Part shown: piece after piece, positions 1,482 through 50,410 of the stretch
Layout of the letters: every line of letters starts with the position of its first letter
Position numbering within the stretch: the first letter of the stretch is position 1
Source of the DNA: Sistotremastrum niveocremeum HHB9708
Lineage: Eukaryota; Basidiomycota; Agaricomycetes; Sistotremastrales; Sistotremastraceae
Assembly (NCBI GenBank): GCA_001630475.1
Contig: KV419397.1
Location: forward strand, 19,640 to 83,639
Length of the DNA stretch: 64,000 nucleotides
Direction: 5' to 3'
Program-made: the position numbers and the translations under genes
The notes under the pieces: generated by a model
The model's database searches: none
What the model was told of the DNA's origin: nothing
The model's input: only the letters and a program-made list of their open reading frames with translations

Positions 1482-3778
1482 CTAGGTTTGAATGCTCATA
1501 AGGCTGGCAACAAATGTCAGAATCTGAGACACCCATTGTGATCAGCATTGGGATGAAAACAAACTAAGATAAAATCTCACAAGTCTTGGTCTGATGTCAA
1601 CAATGTCTTCTGGGACCAGGAATATTAGAGCATTCATCTTACGTGCAATAGAGATTGCCAATTTTGCTAATCACCGATATGTGAACATAAATCTCATGTA
1701 GGACATAAGACATACCATTAGAACGACGATCATCATATGAGCTGGACTCGTTCACATTGAGAACCAAGGCAGGGTCCACTATGCCTGGACGGATAGCATC
1801 CAAAATATCAAGGAAGAACAGGCCGGTAGTCAATGAGGGATCTTTGAAGCTCCGGACGGCTCTACCGGAGAACTGTGACTTCTGTGCGGTTGTGTTTGCC
1901 CATTTAAGGATTTCTTGATCAGTAATTGGCCGTCCGCTCCCTGATAGTTTTGTCAAAGTCTGAGTGATATTGAGTCTGAAATACATCAGCTTCAAGTTGG
2001 ATATATAAAGGGTCGCACGTACCGCATCAATTGCCAGACCAGACCAAGAACCAAGGTCTTCGACCCGTCAACGATATCAGCACCCTGTATGCCCACCAAG
2101 TGCAATTTGTTCTGTCTCGCCAAGTCAATCGCGTAGTTTGTGTTCTCGACACATTTGAATCGAGAGAGTTTTGGTTGATTTGGGGTGATACCCGTTTCCT
2201 CCTCTTCCTCACCAGCCTCTGTAGAGAAAGAAGGCTGTGTCGGCGAAGTCGCTTTTGGTTTTGATACCCTGCGCCACACTACACTTCCCGGGATCACTTT
2301 GTCGAAAACTTGAAGGATGACTAGTCCGTCCTTCAGGTTCTCAAAGAGATTGTGGACGCCAGGCTCCACTTCAAGAGAGTTCAGCCATAGCGTAAACACC
2401 CGCGCCTCGCGTTCGCCTTCGGCATCGAAGTCGTCGACAACGCCATAGTCTTTCGCCTCTTGTTCGTCGAGGGGCGCCAGTCCAGGCCATGTATTGAAAA
2501 GGTTGGCGACGAAGGCAAGGTTTAGGCGTGGGTTGCCGGAGAGCAGGGAGGGTGGGGTGAGATATTTTCGACATCCGATCGCGTCGGCGTTTTGGAGGAC
2601 CTGTGTATGAATGAGTATGCGACGGAATGGTTTACAAGCAACAAACCTGTTCAGCACGCGTCTTTAAATCTTGAGTTTGAAGAGGCGCAACCGAACATTC
2701 CGCAGGCTTCAGTTGGTTTAGAAGGACAGTGTAGTTTTCGCCGTCTGAGACATCCTTGCTGAAGTTGTTGACCCGACGTTTCCAATTTGCTTGCTTGAGA
2801 TGGTAATTAAACCAGCGAAGGAGAATTTGATCTGGCGTCAATCGGAGTAAATCGTCGATGGTTTCATCCTCTTCGCATAGACGGTACAATTCGGGGTGAA
2901 GCTTGATGTCTACGCGGCTGAGGAGGCCACGTCGAATGATCTGCCAGATCAATCCCAATATAAGATGTTCTCGTCCTTCGGAGATATCAGACGATCCAAT
3001 ATTGACAACAGAACAACCGATGGCTTTGGCGGATGTGATGACAATGTTGTTGTTCTCCGTAATTTGGAAAGCATTCAAGGGCTTCCGGAGCGTCGGCTTG
3101 TTGAGAACACGAGGGTCGATTGTATCGGGAACAGAGTCGTTGATCAGTTTACACAGGATCAGGCCATCTCTGCATTCATCGAAGAGTTGCATGGTATCAG
3201 TCGGCACAGGCAGTCGTGAGCCAACATCAGGATCACCCTCCAGAACCTAAGGCGACATAAGGATTTTGACGTTGAGCCGATGGACGTGCACTTACACCAT
3301 TGATATGACTGGTGAACTCTCTGCGCTCTTCCTCGTTGATTGTGTGGCTGACGTTGGCGTTGGACCCTGCTACCGTGACTTTACCGGCTTTCGTCGGTAG
3401 GACAGAGGCGGCTTTCTGGGACTTTAATTTTGCGTTTAACTAGATACAGGCGGAGATGAAGAACCGCGTCACAGAAAAATATGTGTGGGCTAACCTCAAC
3501 CCAATCCTCCAATTCCACTTTGCCACTAGCGTCAACGCTAACGTGCTTCAGAGTTTCTCGGACCTGATCATAGGCTTGTCCCTGACTCTGAAGAGCACTG
3601 ATCACCGCGGCTTTATCGACGCGTCCGGGAGTGTTGGTGTCGATCGAACTTGAGTATAAGCGTATCAGGGATGATCGATAACCTCATTGACATGATCGCA
3701 CTTGAACCGATTGATCAAATCGTACATCTCCTCCTGAGTCACTTGTGGATATTTACGCTGGAGTTTGATGGCTTGCAT
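1482..3778 (-). CDS. SAC6: Fimbrin (plastin), actin-bundling protein
   Basis: Fimbrin cross-links actin filaments in cortical patches and supports endocytosis. The protein starts MQAIKLQRKYPQVTQEEM, matching the Sac6 N-terminus, followed by an EF-hand-like part (SIDTNTPGRVDKAAV, then RETLKHVSVDASGKVELEDW). After that come calponin-homology segments: DGLILCKLINDSVPDTID and GLIWQIIRRGLLSRVD of the first actin-binding region, GLVILQVFDKVIPGSV and LVLGLVWQLMRY of the second, then ILKWAN...SFKDPSL. The last exons give SIARKMNALIFLVPEDIVDIRPRL and ILTFVASLMS before the stop at 1482, the conserved fimbrin end. There are many short introns. It follows Bir1 on the same strand with a gap of about 255 bp. 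Product assignment is secure; exact splice borders are estimates. Confidence 0.93.
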
Positions 3779-4033
3779 GTTGGATTGAAGTCGTTCGAGA
3801 GCTGGGTCAGGGTTGGTCGAGAGAGATGAGTCGGAGTTGGTCGCAGCTGCTGCGACTTCGCTGCGTCATACCAGGCAATGCGACTAGCGCCGGCGTTACG
3901 TGCGCAGAGAGCATCTTCGACCTTACATGTAAACTTGATATACTGGGAAATTCGTGACACAAATTGAACGGATAAGAATTCGTCCCAAGACGAGGTGAGA
4001 GAGATACTAATGATACAGCAATACATGGAAAAG

Positions 4034-5481
4034 TCACAGCAACTCTATCTGTCTACGCACTTCGGCAGCGCGTTCGAGGAACTCATCAATCCGTCTTTCT
4101 CCATCCACCTTGAGTATCTCATATTGTCTATCCATCTCGTGACGAATCCACTGTTCAACAGTCATCTTTCTTTCCTCTTCTGTGAGCACGGATGTCTCTA
4201 CCCTTTCGGGATCAGCGAGGGGGAAGACTGGCAACTGGGAGGAGTCTTCTTCGTCGATGTTGGGCGGCGGCGGAGGGGGTGGTGTGGGAGGTTGAGGTGA
4301 TATTGGAGGTAAGAGAGTCATTGGGGGTTGACCGTTCGGTTTAGACGCCGTTGGAAGTGCTATGGGTCGAAGATCAGGCAGTTTCTCAACCGTCAACGCC
4401 TCTCTGATTGATCTGGCAACCTCGTCCTCAATCGCAGCCTCAGTATCCTCGGGTACAGGAACCGCATCGCTCGGATCAGGGTCAACTGGCTTCGCCTTCT
4501 TCTTTTTCTTTGTCTTCGCACCTGATGAGGAAGCTTTGGACGCCGGAGCTTTCGATTTGGCTGGCAGCTGCGGCATAGACACGGGCGGTGCTTTTGATCT
4601 CGTTTTCCGCTTCTCTGGCTTTGGAGGCTCTGCCTCGACTTCCGACGCGGGCTTAGAATCCGGCGGTTCTGCTTTGGATTTGGACAATGACAGTACGAAC
4701 GCGCATTTCCGTGCAGCAGGACGTCGGATATGCTCTTGTCTGGAGGAGGAAGTCAGCTACGGTATAGGTGGTGATGGGGGAACAGACAGCGGATCATCCT
4801 CGGCATCCCATCCACTCAAACTCGTGTTACAGTATAAGCAAGTGGCCGTATCATCGTCCGGAGTGCTCGAGGGGGTGTATACAAAGCCGGCCTTTGCCAT
4901 CTTCACTTAGAGTAGATCAGAGATCCAATCTTGCCCAACAAGAGTGTATCCACCTTTTTAGACATCGCTCCGTGATTTTTGGTTCCGTCATGAGGCCAAA
5001 TTTTCTCCTTGCCCTTTGTGTAGGTTGCTAAACGCGCTCGTTCGAGAACCCGAGAGTTGGGTAGTCGATCAGGTGTTGGAAAATTATAGCTTGAAGGGAA
5101 ACAACGCGTGAATATCCGCTCGTGCGACGTGTACGATCTGGATCTTACTCACTTGCCTTCATCGTCCAGATCCTGCGCCAATGCACATCTGACGACAACC
5201 CAAGGACATTTCGGACACTTCACCGCGTGTATTTGAAAAGGATCGTCCTCGGCCTCCCAGTCACTCAATTCTTTGGCGCACATAAAACAGACGACATTGT
5301 CAAGATCCGATGACGAGGGAGCATAGTAGAACCCAGCCTCTGCAAGAGTAGCAGGATTGGCACGGAAAGAAGGGGGATGTGGCCACGACGTCTTCTGCTG
5401 ACCCCTAGTGGGTCTTGCACCTGCAGGCTTTGGGGGCGCAGTGAAAGACGCGACCCGAGTTGAGAGAGCCTGCCAGGACAT
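4034..5481 (-). CDS. BIR1: Survivin-like protein with two BIR domains (chromosomal passenger subunit)
   Basis: This is the fungal Bir1/survivin homologue, which targets Aurora B kinase to centromeres and the spindle midzone. The chosen start reads MSWQALSTRVASF. BIR1 follows as WPHPPSFRANPATLAEAGFYY, then CFMCAKELSDWEAEDDPF and HAVKCPKCPW. BIR2 begins KEKIWPHDGTKNHGAM, continues after an intron as MAKAGFVYTPSS, CLYCNTSLSGWDAEDDP, and ends EHIRRPAARKCAF. Zn-binding Cys/His positions are visible in both. A Lys/Pro/Ser-rich linker (KTKKKKKAKP, then nine prolines) leads to a C-terminal helix, TVEQWIRHEMDRQYEILK to EVRRQIELL, the likely INCENP/borealin-binding part. It is divergent from the F-box gene with about 215 bp between starts. 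Confidence 0.9.
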
Positions 5482-5695
5482 GGAGGAGGCGCGTTGTTTG
5501 GTCGTGCTTGGGCAGCGAGGACTCGGACACGGTGTTATCGCGTGTCCCCATAAGAACTTCAGCCCAACCACCATGGACATGCCTGGGTATCCAACAGCTG
5601 AGGAAATCGTTCCATTAAGTCCTCTGCACGTTCCGGCTGCTGTTGACCCCTTAAATGAGGTATTTCGCCCATTCGATGCCATACGGTCTGACCTC
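5482..5695. promoter_or_regulatory. Shared divergent promoter region (BIR1 / F-box gene)
   Basis: About 210 bp separate the BIR1 start from the inferred first exon of the F-box gene on the opposite strand, so both promoters must lie here or overlap the first exons. I see no clear TATA box. The assignment rests on layout only, and the F-box start is uncertain. Confidence 0.35.
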
Positions 5696-7736
5696 ATGCC
5701 TCCCATGGGTAGGTCCAGGGTACCGACGCATATTCAGATGAAGTGAGCATATACCAAGATTCTCTCAATGTTCATGAATAACCATAAATCTCTCTACTTA
5801 GGAGGCCCTGATCACGGAGACCAACGAGACTGTAGCGGGTCACAGCCCACGTATTTCTCACTTAGACGCTGTCTTGTCTTTAGCGCCCGATCAGTCAGAG
5901 GTGAGTCAAAGCAATGTTCAAAATGGTCATGCTAATGATTGTGATTATCTTCAAAACAGAAGGATGAAGAGATTATTGAGACACCAGACACTCGGTTCTT
6001 CCCAGCGCTTCAACTGCGCGAAGTCCTTGCAGAAATCATGTCGCACATGGATATTGCTACTAACGCGGCGGCTGCACGCGTATCGACACTGTGGTCATCA
6101 GTGGCTCTCGATGCGTTATACAGGACGAGCCCAGAACTGTTGAATCTACTGTCTATCCTAGCTCCTATCGCAGAGGTGCGGAATTTGCTTCCGTTCAGCA
6201 AACCCTTACCTGAAACAGTTCTAGTCTTCGTTCGCCAGGGAACTCGTCCCATCAGACTGGGTGCGGTTCAGTCGTTATGCGACTCGTGTCCGATCTCTCT
6301 CGCACGAGACCAATGGTTCTTTGTCGAGCCGCCATTTAAGCGAGAGCGTCTTCCAGGAGCTTGCCCTCTCTCGTCCGTCGATGGAACTCCTTCCCAATCT
6401 CCAAACTTTGCGGTGGACTGCTTCCCGCCCACGCTTCCTTCGATCTGCACTCGTTTTCATCCACAAAGGCTTAACTTCACTCACATTGTCAATAACACGC
6501 CCTGATGGTGCTAAATTCTTGGAATCCATCTTCTATATGCTATCGGAGCGGACCCCTAATCTGACTCATTTTGAGTTGGACTGTCCACGACCTGTCTCGG
6601 AATATGAAGACTCATTTGTCACCTTTCTGTCTTCTCTCCAGAGGTTGCGAAGACTCGTTTTACCTCATTTTTTCCTGACAACGGCAGTGATGCACGCACT
6701 AGGCCCCTTGCCCGACCTGCTAGACATTGTTCTACAGAAGGGTGACCATGTTGGTGCATCGAAAGATCTTGCCTCCTTGAGCTTCCCCACCAATCGGGAC
6801 TTCTTCCCGTGCATCCGGACGTTATCGCTCGACTCTTCTTTGTTCGAAGCCCAGCGGCTGCTCGGCTCCAAAGGTTCGCGTGGCTTCTCCACCTTAACCG
6901 AATTGCATATCTCGAGCCTCGCTCTAGAATCTCCACACGACATACAATCTTTCATCGCATGTATTCCCGAATTTTGCCCGAATCTCACGTCTCTTATGCT
7001 CGCCCTCCTGGCATTGTCGGTCGTCAGCCCCTCTCATCCTACCGAAATCACACTACCTATCCTCAAGCCGGTCTTGAACATCCCTCACCTGATCGATTTT
7101 GGCATCACATACAACTACCCATTAAAACTGACCAACGCCGACGTCGCAGTCCTCGCTGAGAACTGGCCTAATCTGCGATCTTTATATCTCTGCGAATCGT
7201 CCTATGACACTCACGAACGTTCTGCGACCTCCTTAACCCTCCACAGTCTATTGCCTTTCGCTAAACACTGTTCCAAATTGGAACAGCTCGGCATCTTCAT
7301 AGACGCGTGTCCGCCAGAATCGTCTGATGACGACTGTCTGGACCTCACGTCTACCAGGAAAACATTCGAATCCCTGAAGCTTCTGCTTGTTGGACAATCA
7401 TTCCTCCCGCCGGCTTCTGTTGTGCCAACAGCACTCTTCCTGGCAGAAATCTTACCTCCGAACTGCGAATTTTCCACAGGCTGCACTGATCGACCTCATT
7501 GCTTTTCACCAGTGTATCATGAGGCATCCCCCAATCCCGAAAGCGATGACGCCTTCCAGTCTCGCTTAAATCAGTGGGCAGAGGTCAAGAAGCTCGTACC
7601 CGCTTTCCACAGTGTTAAAATGGGGGAAAGGGAGAGAGCGCAGCAGGCGGAACAGCAGCGTCGTGAACTTGCTGATGAAGTGGAAAGCCTCAAAAAACAA
7701 CTGGCCGCACTACAGGGTACTTCGACACAGCGTTGA
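5696..7736 (+). CDS. F-box / leucine-rich-repeat-type protein
   Basis: This is an F-box-type protein of the kind expanded in agaricomycetes, probably a substrate adaptor of an SCF ubiquitin ligase. The N-terminal exon after the intron near 5900 encodes LREVLAEIMSHMDIATNAAA, ARVSTLWSSVALDALYRTSP, a degenerate F-box. An intron at about 6174-6222 joins this to FARELVPSDWVRFSRYATRV, the usual segment after the F-box in this family. Leucine-rich repeats follow (LPNLQTLRW, PNLTHFELDC, LRRLVLPHFFL, PDLLDIVLQ, FSTLTELHIS, CPNLTSLML, WPNLRSLYL, CSKLEQLGIF). The C-terminus is a coiled coil (REQ-rich, ELADEVESLKKQLAAL). The first exon (MPPMGRSR, 5696-5719) is a guess from phase; coding from about 5802 is firm. 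The substrate is unknown. Confidence 0.72.
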
Positions 7737-7920
7737 CCACATCATTTCTTACATTCTCTCATTTCACTCCACAACCACTGTAGCATCTAACGGACTGCTC
7801 TTGTATTTCTTGTATTCACCACTCCTGCTCATCCATCGCGTTTTGTTTTGTTTTGTTTCGTGTCCACTTTCTCTTGTACCAGGCTGTTGTAGGGCGCATC
7901 AAATTGTTGTACTAGCTATG

Positions 7921-9149
7921 CTATTCCGAATCATCGTTCAATTGGGCTTCCAACAAGGGTTGACATAGGGCATGTTGATCTCCAAGACCATAATTCAGAG
8001 TAACTTTCGTATATATTTCACCGTCGAGTTCAAGCTGGGTGTAATGATCATGATTGACGTCCAACTCAAACAAAGTAGCTCACGCACCAGAGAGATCACA
8101 TCATCAAGCAAATGAGCTTGGCCAACGATGGTTCCTAGTGAACCGAAATGATTCGCGTTCACCACGTGCACATGGAAATGATCTTCCATCGTCAGAAGGC
8201 ACACACACACACGAGTGGGTTTCGCGTCATCGTTACTCACAATAAGAGGGTTGATAATGAATAAACATTCTCACTGCGGAGCCGGCCAGGCCTTTTCCCT
8301 GGACATACTGTCGTGCTGTTCTACGAATGTCTTTCAACAAGGGTATATGTTCGCCTCGCAGATCTCTGAGCGATCGGAGAGCCACAGATTTTGCTATTGC
8401 CACGACATAGAGGGTAGAAAGGGGAGAAGTTTCGGCGTCCCATTTCATGTCGGGAAGAAGCACATATCCGGGATCGGAGTATATCAGTTTTTCACTCTCT
8501 GATGTCCCATCTAGAATATTTCGGACCCTGCGACTCTTAGTGAGATGACTAAATTGTGATTACCGGAGAGTAGAACCACTGGGTCCGCTTCGGTGGAAAC
8601 GAATCGACGTATGGTTTTACAATTTTGCGGTACAAATCGATGGATTCATGTACCATGTGCACAGACTGCGCAGAATACTGTCGTCATTTGTCAACTCCAA
8701 ACAGGAATCAGGTACGGCCAATGCAAAATTGACATACTTTTCGTACGTGTACATCCGTGGCAGGAAAAATCACATCGATTTTCACGTCAGGCTTCGCATT
8801 TGATCTCGCGAGCCAGCCATGGAACCACGTATACTTTTCTGGGTGGAAGTAAACAACGCTCGAAAGAGTTTACCAACCTACAATGTCATTGGATTCAACC
8901 AAGTTGAGGCCCTCCAATCGATTAATTAATGTAGAAAATTCCTGAGAGGCTACACTTGATAGTTTCAGGATGCGGACGATCGCCAGATCACGCCCGTCTT
9001 GGACAGGCAAAGTGCCCAGTAAAGCAACGCTGTCAGTGGCAATATCTAAAAGAACCAGTTAGCAGATGGGCAAGTGGGCGGCCGATAATAAAACCCTGAT
9101 TGAGACAACGTTCGAGTTGAAACTCGTCAAGATTGAGAAGTGAAGCCAT
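7921..9149 (-). CDS. dcpS: Scavenger mRNA-decapping enzyme DcpS (HIT family)
   Basis: The enzyme hydrolyses the m7GpppN cap left after 3'-to-5' mRNA decay. The start is MASLLNLDEFQLERCLNQ, which splices to DIATDSVALLGTLPVQDGRD. Further exons give DLYRKIVKPYVDSFPPKRTQ, then LPDMKWDAE, SLRDLRGEHIPLLKDIRR and IHYQPSYYHFHVHVVN. The HIT triad HFHVH is restored by splicing an intron that carries a short CA repeat near 8200. The last exon encodes LELDGEIYTKVTLNYGLGDQ and stops at 7921. All family landmarks are in order and the length fits (about 310 aa). It shares a promoter of about 230 bp with MSH2 and converges on the F-box gene with about 185 bp between stops. Confidence 0.92.
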
Positions 9150-38157: not shown

Positions 38158-40122
38158 TTATGCGTGCCCATTCAAATGCCCATTGCTATGTCCATTCCCA
38201 TTCTGGCTCGTCAACTCAGGTATCGGTATAGCCGCCAATCTCTCTTCCAACCCCTTGATAACCTCGTCCGTATAGGGCGGGTATCTGAAGCCCAAATGAG
38301 GCTCAGCACTAAAGAGACCAGTCAATATTCGAACGCAACGAATAAGGTACAAACGAACGCTTTAGGCATATCAAGGGACGATCTGAAATGACTGAAAGTC
38401 TGGAAAGTGTAATACGAGAACTGATATCCATCTGCCAACCATTCGATCAGATTGTAAAGTGGACGGATGTTGAGAGAGCTTACGGCCCGACTCTCCGTGT
38501 CCTCCGAAAGGCGCTTCGTGGACGGCGACTTGGGTGACACAGTCGTTGAAGATCAATGAGCCGCTATTGGTCTTCTCCAGGACTAAATTAGGTCGTGAGA
38601 AGAGATCACTAGTGCACTCGTGCCTTGAATACCTTTCTGTTTGAGTTCTTCGTCTTCGGTGAATGTGTAGAGAGCCAATGGGTGAGGACTTGAATCCGAA
38701 ATGAATACGAGCAATAGCAGGTTTGCGAGGACGGAGACGCTTACTGGTTGTTGATCCACTGGATAGCTTCGTCGATGCTGTCAACAGGAACGAGGGGAAG
38801 AATTGGTCCAAATAGCTCCCTGACAACTCCATCAATCGAAATTTTCCGAAAGATCAAGGGACGAGCTTACTCTTCCAGTAACGAATCAACATGTGGAACA
38901 TCTCTCACAACCGTAGGCTCGATGCCCCGCTCTCCCTCAAACCCTCCACCGAACACAATCTTTCCTTTCGTCCTCTCCAGAAGAGCCTTCAGTCTTCTAA
39001 AGTGCCCGGGGTTCACGATTCTGCCGAAGGTGCTCGAGGAATGAAGAGCGCCATTAGGATAGAACTCCTTGTTGACTTCTTTCAAAGCTTCGATGAGCTC
39101 TTCCTGCTTATCGCGTGTGACGAGGACGTGATTGGGAGTAACGCAAAGCTGTCCGGAATTCTGGACTTTGCCCCATAGAATACGTTTGGCGGCGAGTTTG
39201 ATGTCGTAGGATGGATCGATGATGACTGGGCATTGACCGCCCAATTCGAGAGTCAAGGGAGTGAGATGTTTGGCTGCGGCTGCAGAGATGATCCGTGCGA
39301 CCCTAAGAGAGTCAGACGCGCGAAAGAAGAACGAAGTGAGATGCGGCTTACTTTCCATTGCCGGTATAGAAGATATGGTCCCATTGGAGCTAATGGGTAT
39401 AAAAGTCAGTCGATATTGAATGAACAAGAAAGCATATACATACCTGAAGAAGGGTAGTCACTTCAGGAATCGCACCCTTAACAATGATGTATGCGTTCGC
39501 ATCCAGGTATTTGGGGAAGAGATCCGCGAAAAGCTTGGAGACGGTAGGAGTGTATTCGGAAGTCTTGACGGCAGCAGTGCATCCAGCAGCGATCGCACCA
39601 ATCAACGGTTGGACGGTCAGAATGAGAGGATAGTTCCAGGGTCTGTCCGAGCCAAAACGAATTCGCTTAGATATAGCATCATGTGCAAAGGGTCGTAGAT
39701 TTGGTACTCACGAGATGATGAGTGCAGCGCCCTTGGGAACACGGTTCACTGTGATGTTCCAGTGCTCTTTGTGGGGTTCGACCTTCGGCTTCTCAGGCTT
39801 TGCCCATTCCTCGAGGTTGTCGGCAGAGTCGATACACATGGCGACGGAGCTGTTGACTTCTTGCAAGACCACTTCCAGTTTTTGCTTTCCGAGGTCCTTG
39901 TGCAAGGCATCGACAAAGGCATCCTTGTTGTCTCGAACGAGCCTAGCAAGTTGGTACAGCTGATTCTTGCGATACTGAAGTGGAAGAGTAGTTTGAGAAT
40001 CGAACGTCTTTTTCAAGGTCGCATGGATCTGTCGCAATAGAGTCAGGAAAAGGGATCTGTACTTGCGCTAAAGATCGCACCTTGGGAATCTGCTCGAGCG
40101 GGGTGTACGATAAATCTGACAT
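38158..40122 (-). CDS. HFD1: Fatty aldehyde dehydrogenase, ALDH3-type
   Basis: The enzyme oxidises long-chain aldehydes to fatty acids with NAD(P)+. Start MSDLSYTPLEQIPKV; then YRKNQLYQLARLVRDNKDAF, KLEVVLQEVNSSVAM and NRVPKGAALIISPWNYPL (the conserved PWNYP). The cofactor region has LTVQPLIGAIAAGCTAAVK and WDHIFYTGNGK. The catalytic Glu lies in LTLELGGQCPVI and the catalytic Cys in VQNSGQLCVTPNHVLV. ELFGPILPLVPVDSIDEAI and NNHPLALYIFTEDEEL follow. The C-terminus is IPPYTDEVIKGLEERLAAIP and then an Asn-Gly-His repeat tail (NGNGHSNGHLNGHA); the usual hydrophobic anchor of Hfd1/FALDH is absent, so localisation may differ. About eight introns. Symbol by homology. Confidence 0.9.
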
Positions 40123-42130: not shown

Positions 42131-42176
42131 GCTCAAGAGCAAGGGGTGAGCGCCGGCAAATGCCGAGACACCGACT
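42131..42176. repeat. Left terminal inverted repeat of the 6.1 kb transposon
   Basis: It begins GCTCAAGAGCAAGGGGTGAG and continues with CGCCGGCAAATGCCGAGACA. It pairs with the reverse complement of 48203-48248, with a perfect first 18 bp and scattered mismatches afterwards. Confidence 0.75.
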
Positions 42177-42269
42177 AGGGGGTGGGGTGGTCCAGCTCCC
42201 GACCTTACAGAATGATCTGACCTCCATATTTTCCGCTGCGAAATAGCTCGTAATCAGTCTTCGTTTGAT

Positions 42270-42276
42270 ATATAAG
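42270..42276 (+). promoter_or_regulatory. TATA-like box of the transposase gene
   Basis: TATATAA lies inside the left end of the element, about 200 bp upstream of the ATG at 42471. It is the only clear TATA-like sequence between the terminal repeat and the start codon. Confidence 0.35.
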
Positions 42277-42470
42277 TTGTTCTGGGAGTGTCCAAACAGT
42301 CTTTACAACGATGATTATGCATTTTGTATCCTTAAATAGTTATTCCGAGCATTTTGCCGGCAAAATATTGTCTGAGCCACGATTTCTTTCCTCCGCAAAT
42401 ATTCACTGCTCATCTTCAAGCACATTCTCTTCTCGACACATCGTCAGACAAGCCACTCTAACATCAACAA

Positions 42471-45400
42471 TGCCTAAAAAGAAAGCCCCAAAGGTCCGTT
42501 ACGATTAATACTGTCACTCAAGCGTTGGGTCTCACCTTGAGAAGGAGCCTGCGACATACAGCTGCGATGTCTGCTCCAAAACCTTTGACAACGAGAATAA
42601 TTGGAAAGTACATCTAGAATCAAGAGATCATAAACGAAAGGCAGGCGAGAAGGCAACAACTCACTCCCTCAGTAAATTCTTTGTCCCTATTGCACCCGCC
42701 GCAAAGGCACCTGCAAAGCAGCTCATGGTTCCAACCCTTCGAAGTGTGCCACCTGGTTCCAAGAAGCGTGGCAATGAACCAGAACCCATCGATGTCGATA
42801 TGCTTGAGGAGACGGATGGTCCGTTGTTGTCCAAACCTACCGAGACACCTTCAACGACATCTGAGACATCGGCCCACACAAGCCCAGACACGTCCGAGAC
42901 ACATCAGCCTACATCCGAGACACATCAGTCTGGCTCTCAGAATGCAAAGGACACTCACTCCACTATAACCTCCTTCCCACCGCTTTTTCGCGAGCTCGAA
43001 ACCCTTGTGAAAAACCTGCCACTGTCGCTCACGCCAGGGGATAAGAAGGATGGTCCACAATCCTTTGCCATCTTCAATTACGATCCTTCTGGTGGGAAAC
43101 AAGCTGTCGAGACAGACTGGGAGATCTGGGAGAATCAGCTTGATGGCATGTTGATCGCGGTTCTGGGGGTTCCGCCGAATACAGTAGCGTCGGTTGCAGC
43201 AAAGCTTCGTGGAGGCGAGTGGGGAGTCGAAGGCTTTGTCCGATGGGTTCGCTTGTGTATGACACAATTGAAGATTCCGTTCGGAACCTTTGAACCTCGT
43301 GTTGAATTGGTGATTGCTGCACTGAAATTCATGTGAGTCGCCCTGCGTTCACAAGGATTATTACTTACACATGAATGATTATCCCCAGCGGAGTGAACGG
43401 AGACGCTGAGCCTTCACATCCACCCCCTCCCCTCACAGCGCACAGTAGCGCACCCGCATCACTCCCATCCCAGTCGAAACCCGTCCCTCGTAAGCCGATC
43501 AAACAGCGCTGTGCCGGATATAGCTTCCCAGTTCCTCCTGGGGCATCACCATACGGGGTTTATCCTGTGATGCTACATGCGGCGCGTGATCTTCCGTGGC
43601 GACCTGAGTTTGCGACCACCACACTTCATCTTCGTGCGAACGCATGTCACGAAACTATCACGCCCGACGAAGTTGGATCGGGCATGACTGAATGTCGCCA
43701 ATGCTCAGCGTTGCGTCACGAGGTCATCATCCTGAATATCATTGAGCGTAATAAAGAAGGTCCACAAGAGCACACACCATATAAATATCTCACCGGATAT
43801 CAAATGATTGCCCTTGTTGAGCGCATCCAGGCTCTGCTTAACGCATTGAAGTTGGCTTCACTAAATAAAGCCCGGGCATTCCTCTGCAGTGCCACAAACG
43901 TGGACGCCTATAAGCGATTTGTCATTGCAGTCGGCCGAGGAGACGTACCTCGTCTGAATGCACTCGTGTCGACGGCGCTTCGTAATCGAGCGTCAATCAC
44001 TACTATCCTGGAGCGAATCAAGTTAGCTGTCAACGACCAATATCATGCGAAGGGTTATACAGACGATGACTACGAACTCGAGTACCTTTGCTTGACCTTA
44101 GGGGGGCGACCGTTAGCCGAACTTGCTCATCGAACTTTGGGCTTACCTTCTCTCACAACTGCCAAACGACATGTGGCTTCCAAAGCTATCCGAGCCTCCC
44201 CGTCTACTCCTACACTGGCTGAGATGAGTGAGAATCTGGATTGTGGCCTTAGCGAGCATACCGTAGTGTTGGCCGCAGAGCCTGTTGTGCTAGGCGCCCA
44301 GATCATGATCGACGAGATCAAGGTGACCCCTACATTGCGCTACGATCCATCCAACGAGATGATCTTGGGGACTTGTCGCTCACACAGTAAACACTGTGTG
44401 CACGAGTTTCGCACAATGGCGCAAGCAGAAGCGATCCGGAAGGATTTGGAAAGTGGCAAGATACATCTGTCGACAGAGGTAAGTGCAGCATGATAATCCA
44501 AAAGAATCCACTGACGTTTACGCTTCAGGCATCAGTCATCGGTCTTGGGTTCTTGAGCAAGAATCCGCGGTTATATTCGGCCCATCCGTTTGTGGTCTCG
44601 GGAACCTGCAAAGTAGAGGAGATCATTGATCAGAAAGGGACCATGGAACGCTGCATCGAGGCTGTCGAGCTATATGCATCCACGCACCGCTTGAAGGTCC
44701 AGGTCTGGTCCTTAGCCACGGATGGGGACTCTCGTCGCCGACGCGTGTTTGCCATGCTCACAATGATCGATACAATTGAGAAATCGAGCCCTTTGGGGCT
44801 GGTGATGGGGGATATGCCGTTATTTGATTTTCACTGCGGAAAGAATCAGCTCACGTCAGACTGTGACATCAAGCACGTAATGAAACGTTACCGAAACACC
44901 CTCATTCGACAGTCGGGTGTGAGTGTTGATGACGTGGAATTGCCCCCTAAACGCCTCCGAACGTTTTTGGAACCAGAGTTTGGCAAGGCGACTACGCATA
45001 ATCTTCTGGAGCCGACCGACAAGCAAGATGTAACTTTGATGTATCGACTGTTGGGAGGAATAGCTGGCCTCCAAACATCTCAGCATGCTACACCTCTGGA
45101 GATGAACGAACGGCGAATACTCACGCTCCTAGGTCGTGTCTATTGGCATCTCCTAGAGCCTTACACCAACAGGGAGCTATCGTTACATGAACAACTAGTT
45201 CATTTGAGTGCACTTGCTCACCTCGTGCTCTCCCTGTACTCATCCGAACGTGGCCGTTTCATGCCGGTCCAACTCTTCTATGACACGATGGCCTGCATCA
45301 AGTCAGTATACGTCTGTGTCGCCAAGACTATCCTCGTGAATCCCGACGGAGAGTTCTGGATTATTTTGTTAGGAACGGATGCACTGGAGAAATCATTTGG

Positions 45401-48036
45401 GACGGTGCGCACCATAGTTGGGAATGACGCCAATTGTGATACTCTGCAACTCTCGCATCGACTCGGACAATCTAGCAGAGTCAACGGAATTTTCGATAAG
45501 CATCCCACGTGGGCGAAAGGACCGAGAAGACTCACATTGAAGAGTGCCACCATCCAAGGCGCAGATACCGTCCAGAAAACCGACCATATCAATCCTGCAT
45601 CTTGGGTTGGAGACGTGAGAGTGAAGAACATCGTTCCGCGGTCACCATGGCTCGAAGGGCGATCAGTTGCCGAGGAAGACCTGAAGGCTGCGGGACTTTC
45701 TTCTCCCTTCGATGCGATGGAGAAAGCTGGTGGATACTCGATGTTCTGTCCATTCGGTCAGAATAAAATGGTCATTATTTCGGATATCAAGGCACCCGGG
45801 GAGATTGACGAAGAGGAGGATGAAGCCCCCCCTAAAGACCCTCTCAATAAGGACCCTCCCCCTCCAGAACCACAACCAGTAGCCAATCCTGCTCCTGCCA
45901 TCACGCGTGAGAGTGTACAGGACTTGGTCGACGGTCTATCAGCGCAGCCTGATCTAGAAGATCATGCAGCAGACGAGCTCACCTCTTTGCAATCAGGGGT
46001 CACACGCAATCCCTGGTTGTCCCTCGATCCCAGTAATCCAAATGCGAAGATGATCCATAAATCTTCGGTGCTCAGAATATTTGCGACAGCATGGACGAAG
46101 GGACCGGAATCAACCGATCGACTCAAGCGGGTAGCAGGCAAATTACGTCACGCGACGGCGAGCGTTCCTCGCAACCTCGGTGAACCCACGGACAGTCCTC
46201 TCAACATCTCTGATCCTGCTGCAACCCTCGTTAGATGTAAGGGTACTCTATTCGTGGCCGTGGTCCAAATAAAAGGTTTCCGCTACGACAGCAACGACAT
46301 CGCCGAACCACCTAAGGAATTGCTCAAGGATGAACGACTCATGGCGACAGTCCAAATCATGCGACTGTCAATGGTAACCGACGCCAGCAAATTGGACGAA
46401 GGGGATTGGGAATGGTCTGGGAGGCTTGAGAACGTTGGCAGACCTCCTACACACGAAGTCCCCGTCACCCTGATCCAACCATTGAATCCGCCGACCCTGC
46501 CGCCCACTCTCTCTACGACCCTCGGTGCCTCTACGTATCGATTCAGCACTAGTGAGATATGTACAGTGGGTGCCGAGCTTCTAGGACGGTTGACGGATAC
46601 CTACTCCGTCGAAAATCTCCCAACAGTCACCTTCACTGAAACTTTCCCCTACCGCACTGTTACCGGTACGCGCATAGCACCCGCCTCCGAATCTAAACTA
46701 ACTGACTGATATATATTAAGGCTCGGCTGCATTTCACGCTGACGAAGTGTCGCCGCAGCAGCGTCTCCTCAAGGACACTCATCGATGCATCAGATGCCCT
46801 CATGTTACACTCACCCTCACCAAACCGGCCTTTCTTCGAGATCATATATCTGCTCATATCATCAATCGCGACGGAGGACTGTCAACAGAGGGCGACACTT
46901 GCTCATTATGTGGCGGACACTGTCAACTCTACATCTCCAAGGGCAAAGGACGGAATGGAGCTTTACGAATTGATCTTGATCTGTCGAAGGCTGCGCAGTA
47001 TCCATGTACCAATCTGGCATCGCTCCGACTCAGCGGATATGGCAAGTTCGACCCAAAGAAGCCCAGATGTACCAACATACCTATCATCTGCCCGTATTGT
47101 CCGGCAAAGTCGCCCGCTGTCTGGCGCTACAATTATGAGCATCATCTCGATACAGCTCATCCAAGGGACAAATCGCGAGTTGCCAAGGTTGATTATCACA
47201 TCTCCATGCCTGAGAAGACCTACATGAAGAACATAGCACGCGCTCAACCTCGGAATACAGTTGCCAAAGCTGAGCTGACCCTTGGATTCGTTGTCTCAGA
47301 TGCACATAGCGTATGCCATGCGATGAGGTGAGTCTTTGAGCGATATCTCGATCACAACTGCTGATCATATGTCAGGGATTTAAGTTATTCGAGCCCTGGA
47401 AGCGGGACTGAGGCGTTGGACGAAAACGGCGATGATGCAGGCCATACTGAAGGCGAAGATGACCGTTCGTGAGTGTAATATCTGGCGTTAAAATGAATCT
47501 TTATTGACTGAATCACTAGCAATATTGAGCTATCCGAGCCTGAGCCGAACGAGGCCGAAAACGAAGATATTGAAGAAGGTGGATCCGACTCAGAAGGCCC
47601 GGAACTGGATCTCGGCGACTCATCAGGATCAGAAATCGAGGATAATGAAGAGACTTCGCATACTTCGACGGCTAGGACGAGGCGGAGGCGGAGTGCAAGA
47701 AGCAGGAACCCGGTTGCTGACTTGTCTAGAAATTTCATTGAATCTCATACATGCGCCGATCCAGGTTGTCTCGGAGAGGGGGTTTCGGGGGAGATGGTCA
47801 AATGCAAGGGCCCATTGTGTGTCGCACCATATGTAAGTCTTTTACATCCTGAATGATTCCTGTACTCTGCTAAACTGGAATAACAGTGGCACATCGAGTG
47901 TGCCGGACTCAACGAGAAACCGGCGGACTGGTATTGCGATGCCATATGCGAAGATAATGCTACGGGACGAAGTCAGGGAAAGAGAAAGAGAGGCCAGCCA
48001 AAGAAACGAGCAGCGAAACGTTCGCGTGTGCAGTAG
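42471..48036 (+). CDS. P-element-like DDE transposase with zinc-binding clusters and C-terminal PHD finger
   Basis: The spliced gene encodes about 1,700 aa. The N-terminus has MPKKKAPK, then a C2H2-type finger (CDVCSKTFDNENNWKVHLES..DH). The one in-frame TAA at about 42507, before the finger, has no good intron around it, so the start may be downstream or the copy slightly damaged. The catalytic core shows P-element-type blocks: MIDEIKVTPTLRYD, SLATDGDSRRRR, FHCGKNQLTSDCDIKHVMKR-like and TDALEKSFGTVRTIVGND (putative D, D, H/K and E). Introns at 43334, 44480, 46657 and 47329 restore the frame. The third part is a Cys/His cluster (CIRCPH, CSLCGGHC, CPYCPAK, HHLDTAH). After an acidic stretch and RTRRRRSARSR comes a PHD finger (CADPGCLG, MVKCKGPLC, WHIECAGLNEKPADWYC) and a basic, AT-hook-like tail (GKRKRGQPKKRAAKRSR). 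Confidence 0.72.
47740..47960 (+). other. PHD finger coding segment of the transposon gene
   Basis: Cysteine pairs CADPGC and MVKCKGPLC, then, across the intron at about 47832-47887, WHIEC and WYCDAIC, give the Cys4-His-Cys3 pattern of a PHD finger. Such domains usually read histone H3 tails. A basic tail with GQPKKRAAKR follows. Confidence 0.75.
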
Positions 48037-48202
48037 TTGACGATCCATTAAATGTGTTTTGTCGTTTTTAGGTCGTTTAATAGAACAGACGATAATATTT
48101 ATCACGAAGCAATATATTATGTATTAATCTACTGAGACCGGGGCCAAATAAAATGGGTATGGGGGGTGGGTGGTCCTAAAGTTGGCCTTACAGAATGATT
48201 CG

Positions 48203-48248
48203 AGTTAGTGTTCCGGACTTTCCCGGTGCACACCCCTTGCTCAAGAGC
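48203..48248. repeat. Right terminal inverted repeat of the 6.1 kb transposon
   Basis: In reverse it reads GCTCAAGAGCAAGGGGTGTG, then CACCGGGAAAGTCCGGAACA. It lies 169 bp before the start codon of the GPHR gene, so the element inserted in that gene's upstream region. Confidence 0.75.
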
Positions 48249-48416: not shown

Positions 48417-50410
48417 ATGTCTCTGGATTCGAACGTCTTATTCGAGTCGTGTGTGTTGGTGGGCGCGAGGTACGTCTCAGTCATACACGTCATTTCCATA
48501 ATCTTACCGAATCTGGCTAGGATTGCCCTATTTTCGTTCTGTCAAAGAGTTTTGCTTCGTGCTCTCTACGTTGACCTCAGGTCGCTCTCGTCATCTCAAC
48601 CATCTCCTTCAACGCAGTCGCCATCATCGTCTTCGATACCGCTTTCATCCCTAGGCCTGCCACACCCGACCACGACTCCTACATTCTCTTCATCGTCAGC
48701 AAATTCAGGCTCTTCGCATGTCCGTGTAGCAAGAACAGTCTTTCCGCTCTGTTTCTCCGAATGTTGTATCCTCTTCTCGTTGGTCATATTTCAAAATATC
48801 GATTTCTTCGATTCAAGGTGCGGCACTTCGGTTTTGCCACATTCTGAGGTGTTTATGCAGATTGCAGGACTCGATACCTTAACTGGAGACTATCGATTAC
48901 TCTCCTGTTGCTGCTCATACTCGTCGTATCTCCACTTGCTTTGCTTCTTGTCATAGACTGGTGTGAGTATTTTACTCTGACATCCAGAATTCCCGACTGA
49001 CGTAATGGGGGTAAATATAGCCCCGCCATTGCTTTCCAAGACTCTCCATAATAAATTCCTCATAGCACTGATCCCATATACAATCTATCTAATCCTGTTA
49101 ACGCACATCCCCCTCCCATATGGGACATCAGAATACGGTCAGTCTATTACCCCACATCTAATGCTGCCCCCCCTGAACAGGATTTGTCTTCATTACAGGA
49201 ATCCTGGCACTTTGGCTCACCCGCCTCCTTGTCATTGGAACATCCATACTTGGTATCCTAACCGGTCTCGGAACTATCTCATCAACCTATGACTCTCTCT
49301 CATTACTACTCTCATTTTCTGCTGGCGGATCGAGGAGGGTCACAGACCAGGATATCTTACAGGCTGAAACGACCCTGCAGAGGATTCAGAGTGATAAAGA
49401 GGAGAGGAGGAGAGAAATGGAAAGGATGAGCGCATCGGTACGTCAGTCATTGTAGTCGACTGGTTGGAGTAGTAAGTGATGTCTTTCCTGCAGACGCCTA
49501 GTAGTTCGACGTGGACTTCCTTTTTCAAATCACAACGTTCGTTATACTTGGTTCAAAGCAAATCTACTACTTGTATTGACAACGTATGACATTCAGCGAC
49601 ATCCTCAATTGCTCACGAACTCGCCGGGCTAACATCCCTCGAATCCCAGATTCAATCTGATCTCACATCACTCCGCCGGCGCCAATCCTTCCAATCTCGC
49701 TCCTGGGTAGAAAAGATTATAGGACATACTCTAGCAGCATATTGTGTACTGCGAGTAGCAAGTGTATGAGTACCCCATTCACGTTCCATACCAAATTGAC
49801 ACCATATACAGTCCCTGCGAAACCTTCTATTTCTTCGTCAAGTTGTACCAATCCCAACATCAGAACAGACATCAATCACGACAAGTTCGCCCGACATCGT
49901 AGCGCGTCTCATATCGTCGCTCCCGTTATTCGGCATAACCGCCATCGACGCTCCCGCCCTCTCTCATCAACTGTCCCTTCTCTTCATCGGAATCATCGTT
50001 CTCTCCAATGTCCGTCGTGTATTGGTGGGATGTACGAAAATCTTGCGGTTGACGAGCGATTCGAGCGTCAGAGGTGGGGGGTTAGAAAATAGACGAACGG
50101 CATTGATGGGCTTATTATTGGCTCAATTGATGGTACTTCTCCCAACTATCTTTATTGCTTCGGAATTAACTGTTTCTAGGGTGTATATCTCCTCGCAACA
50201 CTCATTCAACTCCGAACTTCTTTCCCTCCTTCTGACCTCTCCCGAACATCCTCCACATATTCCTCCTCCAGTATCGAAGATGAGATCCCAACAAATCTTT
50301 TCGAAACATTGCCTTCGTTTGAACTCTTTGGCCATCTCTTCGACATCTTCTTCCTCATTACCTGTCTGTTGGGATACTGTTGGCGGTGGATCGCTCGGAA
50401 CTTGACTTAG
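48417..50410 (+). CDS. Golgi pH regulator-type membrane protein (GPHR / GTG family)
   Basis: Members are multi-span anion channels of the Golgi, also described as ABA-GPCR-like. The first exon MSLDSNVLFESCVLVGAR splices to IALFSFCQRVLLRALYVDLR, then a Ser-rich loop, and RVARTVFPLCFSECCILFSL. Further exons give PPLLSKTLHNKFLIALIPYT, GFVFITGILALWLTRLLVIG, GTISSTYDSLSLLLSF (the conserved GxGTxxxxY segment), LQAETTLQRIQSDKEERRRE, ELAGLTSLESQIQSDLTSLR, then SLLFIGIIVLSNVRRVLVGC, LLLAQLMGVYLLATLIQLRT and ELFGHLFDIFFLITCLLGYC before the stop at 50410. About nine membrane segments are visible. The order and length fit the family. The transposon ends 169 bp upstream of its start codon. Confidence 0.87.

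Follow-up and report, generated by a model that had tools for sequence, protein, structure and literature searches.

The window analysed here, a stretch of 64,000 nucleotides from the fungus Sistotremastrum niveocremeum HHB9708 (contig KV419397.1, positions 19,640 to 83,639 of the forward strand), contains a DNA transposon of 6,100 bp at positions 42140-48239, which is probably a divergent member of the P superfamily. A single gene lies between its ends. A perfect 8-bp target-site duplication, CTCAAGAG, was found immediately outside both element ends (42132-42139 on the left and 48240-48247 on the right). The terminal inverted repeats, at 42140-42176 on the plus strand and 48203-48239 on the minus strand, were imperfect over 37 nt, with the first 9 bases identical; the left one starts with CAAGGGGTG and the right one ends with CACCCCTTG. 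Just inside these repeats, a subterminal direct repeat of 38-39 nt was present on the plus strand, with a G-rich left copy ending in CCTTACAGAATGAT (42178-42216) and a right copy at 48162-48199, and its local alignment score was 43, whereas none of 500 shuffles exceeded 31. Further, a 12-bp subterminal palindrome, CGGCAAATGCCG, was located in the left end (42154-42165), and its count in the genome as part of a longer pattern, given below, makes it a candidate binding site for the transposase. The extent of 42131-48248 claimed in the first-pass annotation of this DNA coincides, within one base per side, with the element plus both duplications.

The transposase gene was placed on the plus strand at 42470-48036, with eight exons (42470-42493, 42542-43332, 43389-44478, 44529-46665, 46721-47327, 47376-47468, 47520-47832 and 47887-48036) and the stop codon TAG. 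The putative splice sites, GT-AG throughout, define seven introns with lengths of 48-56 nt, and the spliced frame of 1,734 amino acids (aa) was open, with no internal stop. A gene predictor supplied with the codon usage of this gene recovered exons 3-8 and the end of exon 2, with a later ATG start; trained on the same gene, it served as a consistency check and not as independent proof. The order of the protein was a basic start, a C2H2 finger, a small Cys cluster (by eye), a DDE core, a Cys/His-rich region, an acidic stretch, a PHD finger, and a basic tail. The N-terminal C2H2 zinc finger, already proposed in the first-pass annotation, was recognized at aa 14-39 (42557-42634, plus strand) by PF12171 with E 1.8e-6, above the curated cut-off, and the four sequence motifs quoted there were all located in the spliced protein. 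The Cys/His-rich region (C-x2-C, C-x2-C-x3-C, C-x2-C..H-x4-H; 46780-47170, plus strand) was assigned by eye from the family alignment, with approximate limits; it is kept in the relatives and is probably zinc-binding. In the C-terminal tail (47956-48033, plus strand), the last 19 residues were basic and may act as a nuclear localisation signal. Judged from the sequence, an open spliced frame of 1,734 aa, together with relatives having the core, the Cys/His-rich region and the PHD finger in the same order, appears far beyond chance.

The relatives were obtained by a search of the genome (111 contigs, 34.7 Mb). It gave ten matching stretches, which belong to seven coding loci, the one in the window among them, and a second query recovered six of the seven, without the one on contig C34. 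The loci L019, L020, and L022 were complete: each had inverted ends flanked by an exact duplication of 8 bp (ACGCACCC, GACAGCGC, and GACCTGCG, respectively). The L022 element occupied 2191-8028 on the reverse strand of its stretch (C36:341600-351599), with the ends CAAGAGGCG, and no palindrome was found in its left end. L021 and L024 were interrupted or decayed, and L023, on C34, was a fragment. The core identity to the window protein was 38% for L019, 38% for L020, 41% for L021, and 30% for L022, and that between L019 and L021 was 65%. Upstream of the predicted starts of L019, L020, and L022, C2H2-like stretches at the N-terminal side were seen by eye only. It was also seen by eye that L021 is broken twice (about 3500-4080 and 7380-7900) by similar foreign sequence, which seemingly occurs again in L024 and could be another nested repeat. 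Collections of viral and prokaryote sequences, neither of them fungal, gave 87 and 85 pattern matches, respectively, and no relative.

The core of the protein was found to resemble the transposase of the Drosophila P element. Among 177,635 PDB sequences, the core profile had a single match at E <= 10, namely the Drosophila P-element transposase 6p5a (E 0.002), and the matching stretches were collinear on that protein. In the hhalign comparison, the first stretch (E 1.8e-4) contained D230, D303, and D339-x2-H342 of the P transposase, and the second stretch (E 4.0e-4) contained E531, compared with 0.15 for the reversed sequence and 0.013 for the best of 60 shuffles. The putative catalytic residues D580 (MIDEI, 44311-44313), D700 (ATDGDS, 44721-44723), and E922 (TDALEKSFG, 45387-45389), all on the plus strand, were aligned to D230, D303, and E531, respectively. 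The hmmsearch alignment paired D230 and E531, and hhalign paired D230 and D303, with E531 in the second stretch. In addition, D748-x2-H751 (DIKH, 44865-44876, plus strand) was aligned to D339-x2-H342. The residue numbers of the P transposase follow PMC7776569 and PMC8230255, and the latter names a [C/D](2)H motif that opens the insertion domain in the P superfamily, with which D748-x2-H751 agrees (these and all other papers given here by PMC number are cited from partial text). The second Asp, the Glu, and the D-x2-H motif were present in all five aligned rows of the family, and the first Asp in the four rows that cover it and in the raw translation of L021. Moreover, three of the five family cores matched the Pfam model TNP-like_RNaseH_C (best E 0.0012), and two matched TNP-like_RNaseH_N (best 0.022).

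The ends of the elements were in agreement with a P-type origin. An 8-bp duplication combined with inverted repeats was found at the window element, L019, L020, L022, an element of 2,618 bp, and 22 short elements, one of them with one mismatch. Such ends are also compatible with the hAT superfamily, in which 8-bp duplications, YARNG-type ends, and an insertion domain occur; the CAAGG end found here fits YARNG, and the duplication length fits as well. However, no hAT model was matched in Pfam at E <= 10 by the whole protein or the five cores (above about 0.1, HMMER discards most matches in its filters), no hAT transposase structure was among the PDB matches at E <= 10, and the block around the Glu resembled that of the P transposase, so that a hAT element is highly improbable. 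An element of the KDZ group (Kyakuja-Dileera-Zisupton), which is present in mushroom genomes, was a further candidate in view of the probable host group and of the duplication length, since 8-bp duplications are described for Zisupton (PMC12730594). Kyakuja elements, however, have 7-bp duplications and CA..TG ends without inverted repeats according to the available part of the same paper, and neither the whole protein nor the five cores had a KDZ family among their Pfam matches at E <= 10. This origin is given slightly less weight still than hAT. Of the groups that the first-pass annotation named for profile comparison, the P transposase was matched, and no hAT or KDZ model was.

No THAP model was among the Pfam matches of the whole protein at E <= 10. 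THAP domains are described as confined to animals in the available text of PMC7776569, and the domain is treated here as an animal feature that is not required for membership of the P superfamily.

Several results weigh against the P-superfamily assignment. The similarity to the P transposase was weak: the stretches matched in the PDB were singly non-significant (i-Evalue 12, 6.3, and 3500), hhalign with just the last 153 aa of the fragment gave E 0.0079, and the core alone had no match in the PDB with phmmer. In Pfam, the whole protein matched no transposase model, the window core matched neither TNP-like_RNaseH model, with a chance-like MOZART1 (0.19) as its sole match, and an unrelated YphA model reached 0.034 in one family member. 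PF21787 had no match in the fungus's own genome, where its 14 controls were silent too. Of the eight residues listed for guanosine triphosphate (GTP) contacts in the accessible part of PMC7776569, clear counterparts were recognized for D528 and V401 only, and K400 was aligned with Asp. Furthermore, when the first 507 aa encoded by exon 4 were modelled from the single sequence, the mean predicted local distance difference test (pLDDT) score was 36.1. The P-element link, which the first-pass annotation had marked as inference, is nevertheless supported by the profile evidence (the sole PDB match, the hhalign values beyond the controls, and the aligned triad), and the P-type RNase H models of Pfam gave weak matches in some relatives and none in the window protein; the first-pass interpretation as a whole, which also covers a chromatin role of the finger, is supported in part. 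Taken together, the element is most probably a divergent P-superfamily transposon without a THAP domain, complete and probably autonomous, moving by cut-and-paste. The probability of this reading was put at about 0.80 rather than 0.82, because the P-type Pfam matches lie near unrelated chance-level ones. The catalytic function of D580, D700, and E922, the RNase H fold, and the DNA-binding assignments are predictions from sequence.

The PHD finger is encoded on the plus strand in two parts, at 47749-47832 and, beyond an intron, at 47887-47955. In the window alone the match was weak (PF23011, E 0.3 with the whole protein and 0.0031 with an 81-aa piece), whereas a profile of four copies clearly indicated a C4HC3 finger of the ING type, with ING1 as the best match (E 3.8e-8), followed by YNG1, YNG2, and other ING proteins; the ING family took the first 20 of the 28 rows. 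The C-terminal PHD finger claimed from the first reading of the sequence is therefore real. It was found in five of the seven coding loci: the window, L019, L020, L021 (beyond the inserted foreign stretch), and L024 (decayed, about 2.9 kb past the acidic stretch). It was not found in L022, whose ends are complete, or in the fragment L023; L022 may serve as a natural control for the role of the finger. In the window, L019, L020, and L021, an intron interrupts the finger at one shared position, just before the PHD His. In the four copies, seven zinc ligands were invariant and the eighth was read by eye in each, and so was the W that stands two positions ahead of the seventh ligand invariant. As a possible host donor, 11 PHD places were found in the genome, of which eight were examined (L001-L008, two of them overlapping); none stood out, the best E being 2.5e-4, and the search may have overlooked ING genes interrupted by introns.

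The finger might instead belong to a separate gene adjoining the transposase. The one-transcript status was derived from the genome sequence and not from complementary DNA, and foreign sequence separates the PHD finger from the rest of the gene in the decayed copies L021 and L024. However, one continuous spliced frame covers both parts in the window and in the L019 and L020 models, and the finger stands within the terminal repeats in the same three elements, which makes a separate gene hardly credible. The single gene carrying a PHD finger, as the first-pass annotation had it, was accordingly retained.

The same ends were found on many shorter elements. The pattern CAAGGG-N8-CGGCAAATGCCG, with up to two mismatches, occurred 45 times in the genome, compared with once for a reversed control pattern. 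Thirty of the 45 left-end loci (L033-L062) were examined, and 25 of these had a right end and an 8-bp duplication: 22 short elements, the window element, L020, and one element of 2,618 bp with an exact 8-bp duplication. In the short elements, of 269-942 bp, the right end CCTTG and then the same 8 bp were found within 1.5 kb, exactly in 21 cases and with one mismatch in one. At the remaining five loci, the right end was not found within the 7.4-8.3 kb searched (L036, L040, and L061) or before the contig ends that cut the search (L037 and L049). L049 is a duplicate of L041, with an identical left flank of 300 bp. The system appears to have moved recently, because L059 and L060, which lie at different sites, shared 405 bp without a difference, and the identity between L051 and L055 was 99.5%. 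Many of the short elements resembled the ends of L020, and L035 (618 bp) had two ends similar to those of the window element (82% and 77%); which transposase mobilises which short element is presumptive. Several subfamilies (CAAGGGTACGTCAT, CAAGGGTGCTTCAC, and CAAGGGGCATGCAY) could be told apart among the short elements, and for some of them no coding partner was identified. The 12-bp palindrome by itself was counted 39 times in the genome, compared with three for its reversed control; 17 of the 39 stood in the exact left-end signature and three more in a near one, and the others were elsewhere (for example, at L026 and L028).

The fungal element was compared with the Drosophila P element and THAP9, P elements being a model of how transposons invade. 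It shared with them the aligned DDE triad and D-x2-H motif, a similar Glu block, and the 8-bp duplications with inverted and subterminal repeats (as described in the available part of PMC7776569). It differed in having C2H2 and other Cys/His regions where no THAP domain was found, in its length of 1,734 aa, in its C-terminal PHD finger, and in the GTP-contact residues, which were only partly recognisable. A P-superfamily architecture that lacks the animal THAP domain is thereby documented. P-like elements in fungi are already known, because a repeat class called 'P-Fungi' is in use: it is listed in an annotation table (PMC8594854), and 10 copies with a total of 46,557 bp are given for Pleurotus ostreatus PC80 (PMC12387193). 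The likeness of the present element to this fungal branch of P-like DNA transposons is by class name only. In the part of the literature covered, at the level of titles and the starts of abstracts, no PHD finger was described in P-like transposases, including 'P-Fungi' members.

PHD fingers or other zinc-binding domains accompany transposases of other groups. Rehavkus is a DNA transposase containing a PHD finger, but it is a Mutator outgroup with 9-bp duplications, from arthropods and annelids (PMC6446971, partial text). PiggyMac and Tpb2, which are PiggyBac-related, possess a cysteine-rich, zinc-binding domain by which histone H3 tails are bound, and a chromatin-tether role for a transposase PHD finger would thus have a precedent by analogy; they belong to another superfamily, however, and the PiggyMac domain is a cross-brace finger that differs from a PHD, without discrimination of methyl-lysine (PMC8086355, partial text). 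The closest solved PHD fingers by the four-copy profile were those of ING, YNG, and PHO23, which, unlike the transposon protein, are host chromatin proteins with a full aromatic cage. RAG2 and the RAG-like transposons couple a transposon-derived recombinase to a PHD finger reading H3K4me3; in contrast to the fungal protein, that finger is on a separate subunit, and the transposase is of another superfamily.

On these grounds, a mechanism may be proposed. The zinc-finger regions, in place of the animal THAP domain, would bind the subterminal repeats and the palindrome, and an RNase H-type site of D580, D700, and E922 with an insertion domain would cut both ends. The element would then be joined to a target cut with an 8-bp stagger, by the cut-and-paste route of P elements, and the same kind of transposase would also move the short elements that share these ends. 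The ING-type PHD finger would most likely contact histone H3 tails and tether the transposase to chromatin, possibly to open promoter chromatin; both histone binding and insertion targeting by the finger are inferred.

The residues of the finger bear on this last step. The methyl-lysine cage of ING proteins is formed by the Tyr before GEM and the Trp before F-H. No counterpart of the Tyr was present in any of the four aligned copies, and the Trp position was occupied by Y, Y, Y, and H, with W in the decayed L024, so that the cage appears only partly kept. Contact of the finger with H3 is plausible from its sequence, and specificity for H3K4me3 is doubtful. The view of a simple H3K4me3 reader is weakened, because the cage Tyr is not kept and no PHD finger was found in the complete relative L022. 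The same two observations would suit a P-type element whose finger has no chromatin role and serves as a zinc module for structure or DNA binding, or is the decayed remnant of a captured ING finger. Insertion sites were considered here as well: with a crude codon model, 28 of 57 flanks were called, 17 as 5'-proximal and 11 as 3'-proximal, and 29 were not called. The model was too insensitive to decide on a bias, calling nothing beside the window element despite the gene on its right, and the count includes L049, the duplicate of L041, and L061, which has a weak left end. On the other hand, the zinc ligands align in the four copies, and the fold signature survives at 38-65% core identity, which suggests selection. 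A finger without a chromatin role is thus a substantial possibility, although short of an even chance. The further ideas of the first-pass annotation, that the finger could select a chromatin state for insertion or lessen silencing of the element, stand as hypotheses, with results that neither prove nor contradict them.

A more far-reaching proposal is that a fungal P lineage acquired its ING-type PHD finger from a chromatin gene of the host, reads H3 tails with it, and steers itself and its short dependants to active promoter chromatin, as a single-protein parallel to the RAG recombinase with its coupled PHD finger. We consider this proposal tentative and rather unlikely. P elements of the fly favour promoters, with open chromatin as only a tentative cause in the available text of PMC7776569. 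If the steering is true, the PHD-less L022 would be its natural control. With a PHD-bearing P-type transposase, a PHD-less relative, and numerous short dependent elements of recent date, all within a single genome of 34.7 Mb, chromatin-guided insertion is directly testable; the element would be of middling interest unless a targeting role of the finger is established.

The surroundings of the window element fit insertion at the promoter side, as one case, since it stands between divergent neighbours. On the left, an aldehyde dehydrogenase gene (PF00171) was found at 39708-40064 on the minus strand, pointing away from the element. On the right, an open frame extends over 48417-49455, with its ATG about 180 bp from the element and with inferred gene limits. 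Within this plus-strand gene, PF12537, the N-terminal domain of the Golgi pH regulator, was matched at 49177-49452 (E 4.7e-14).

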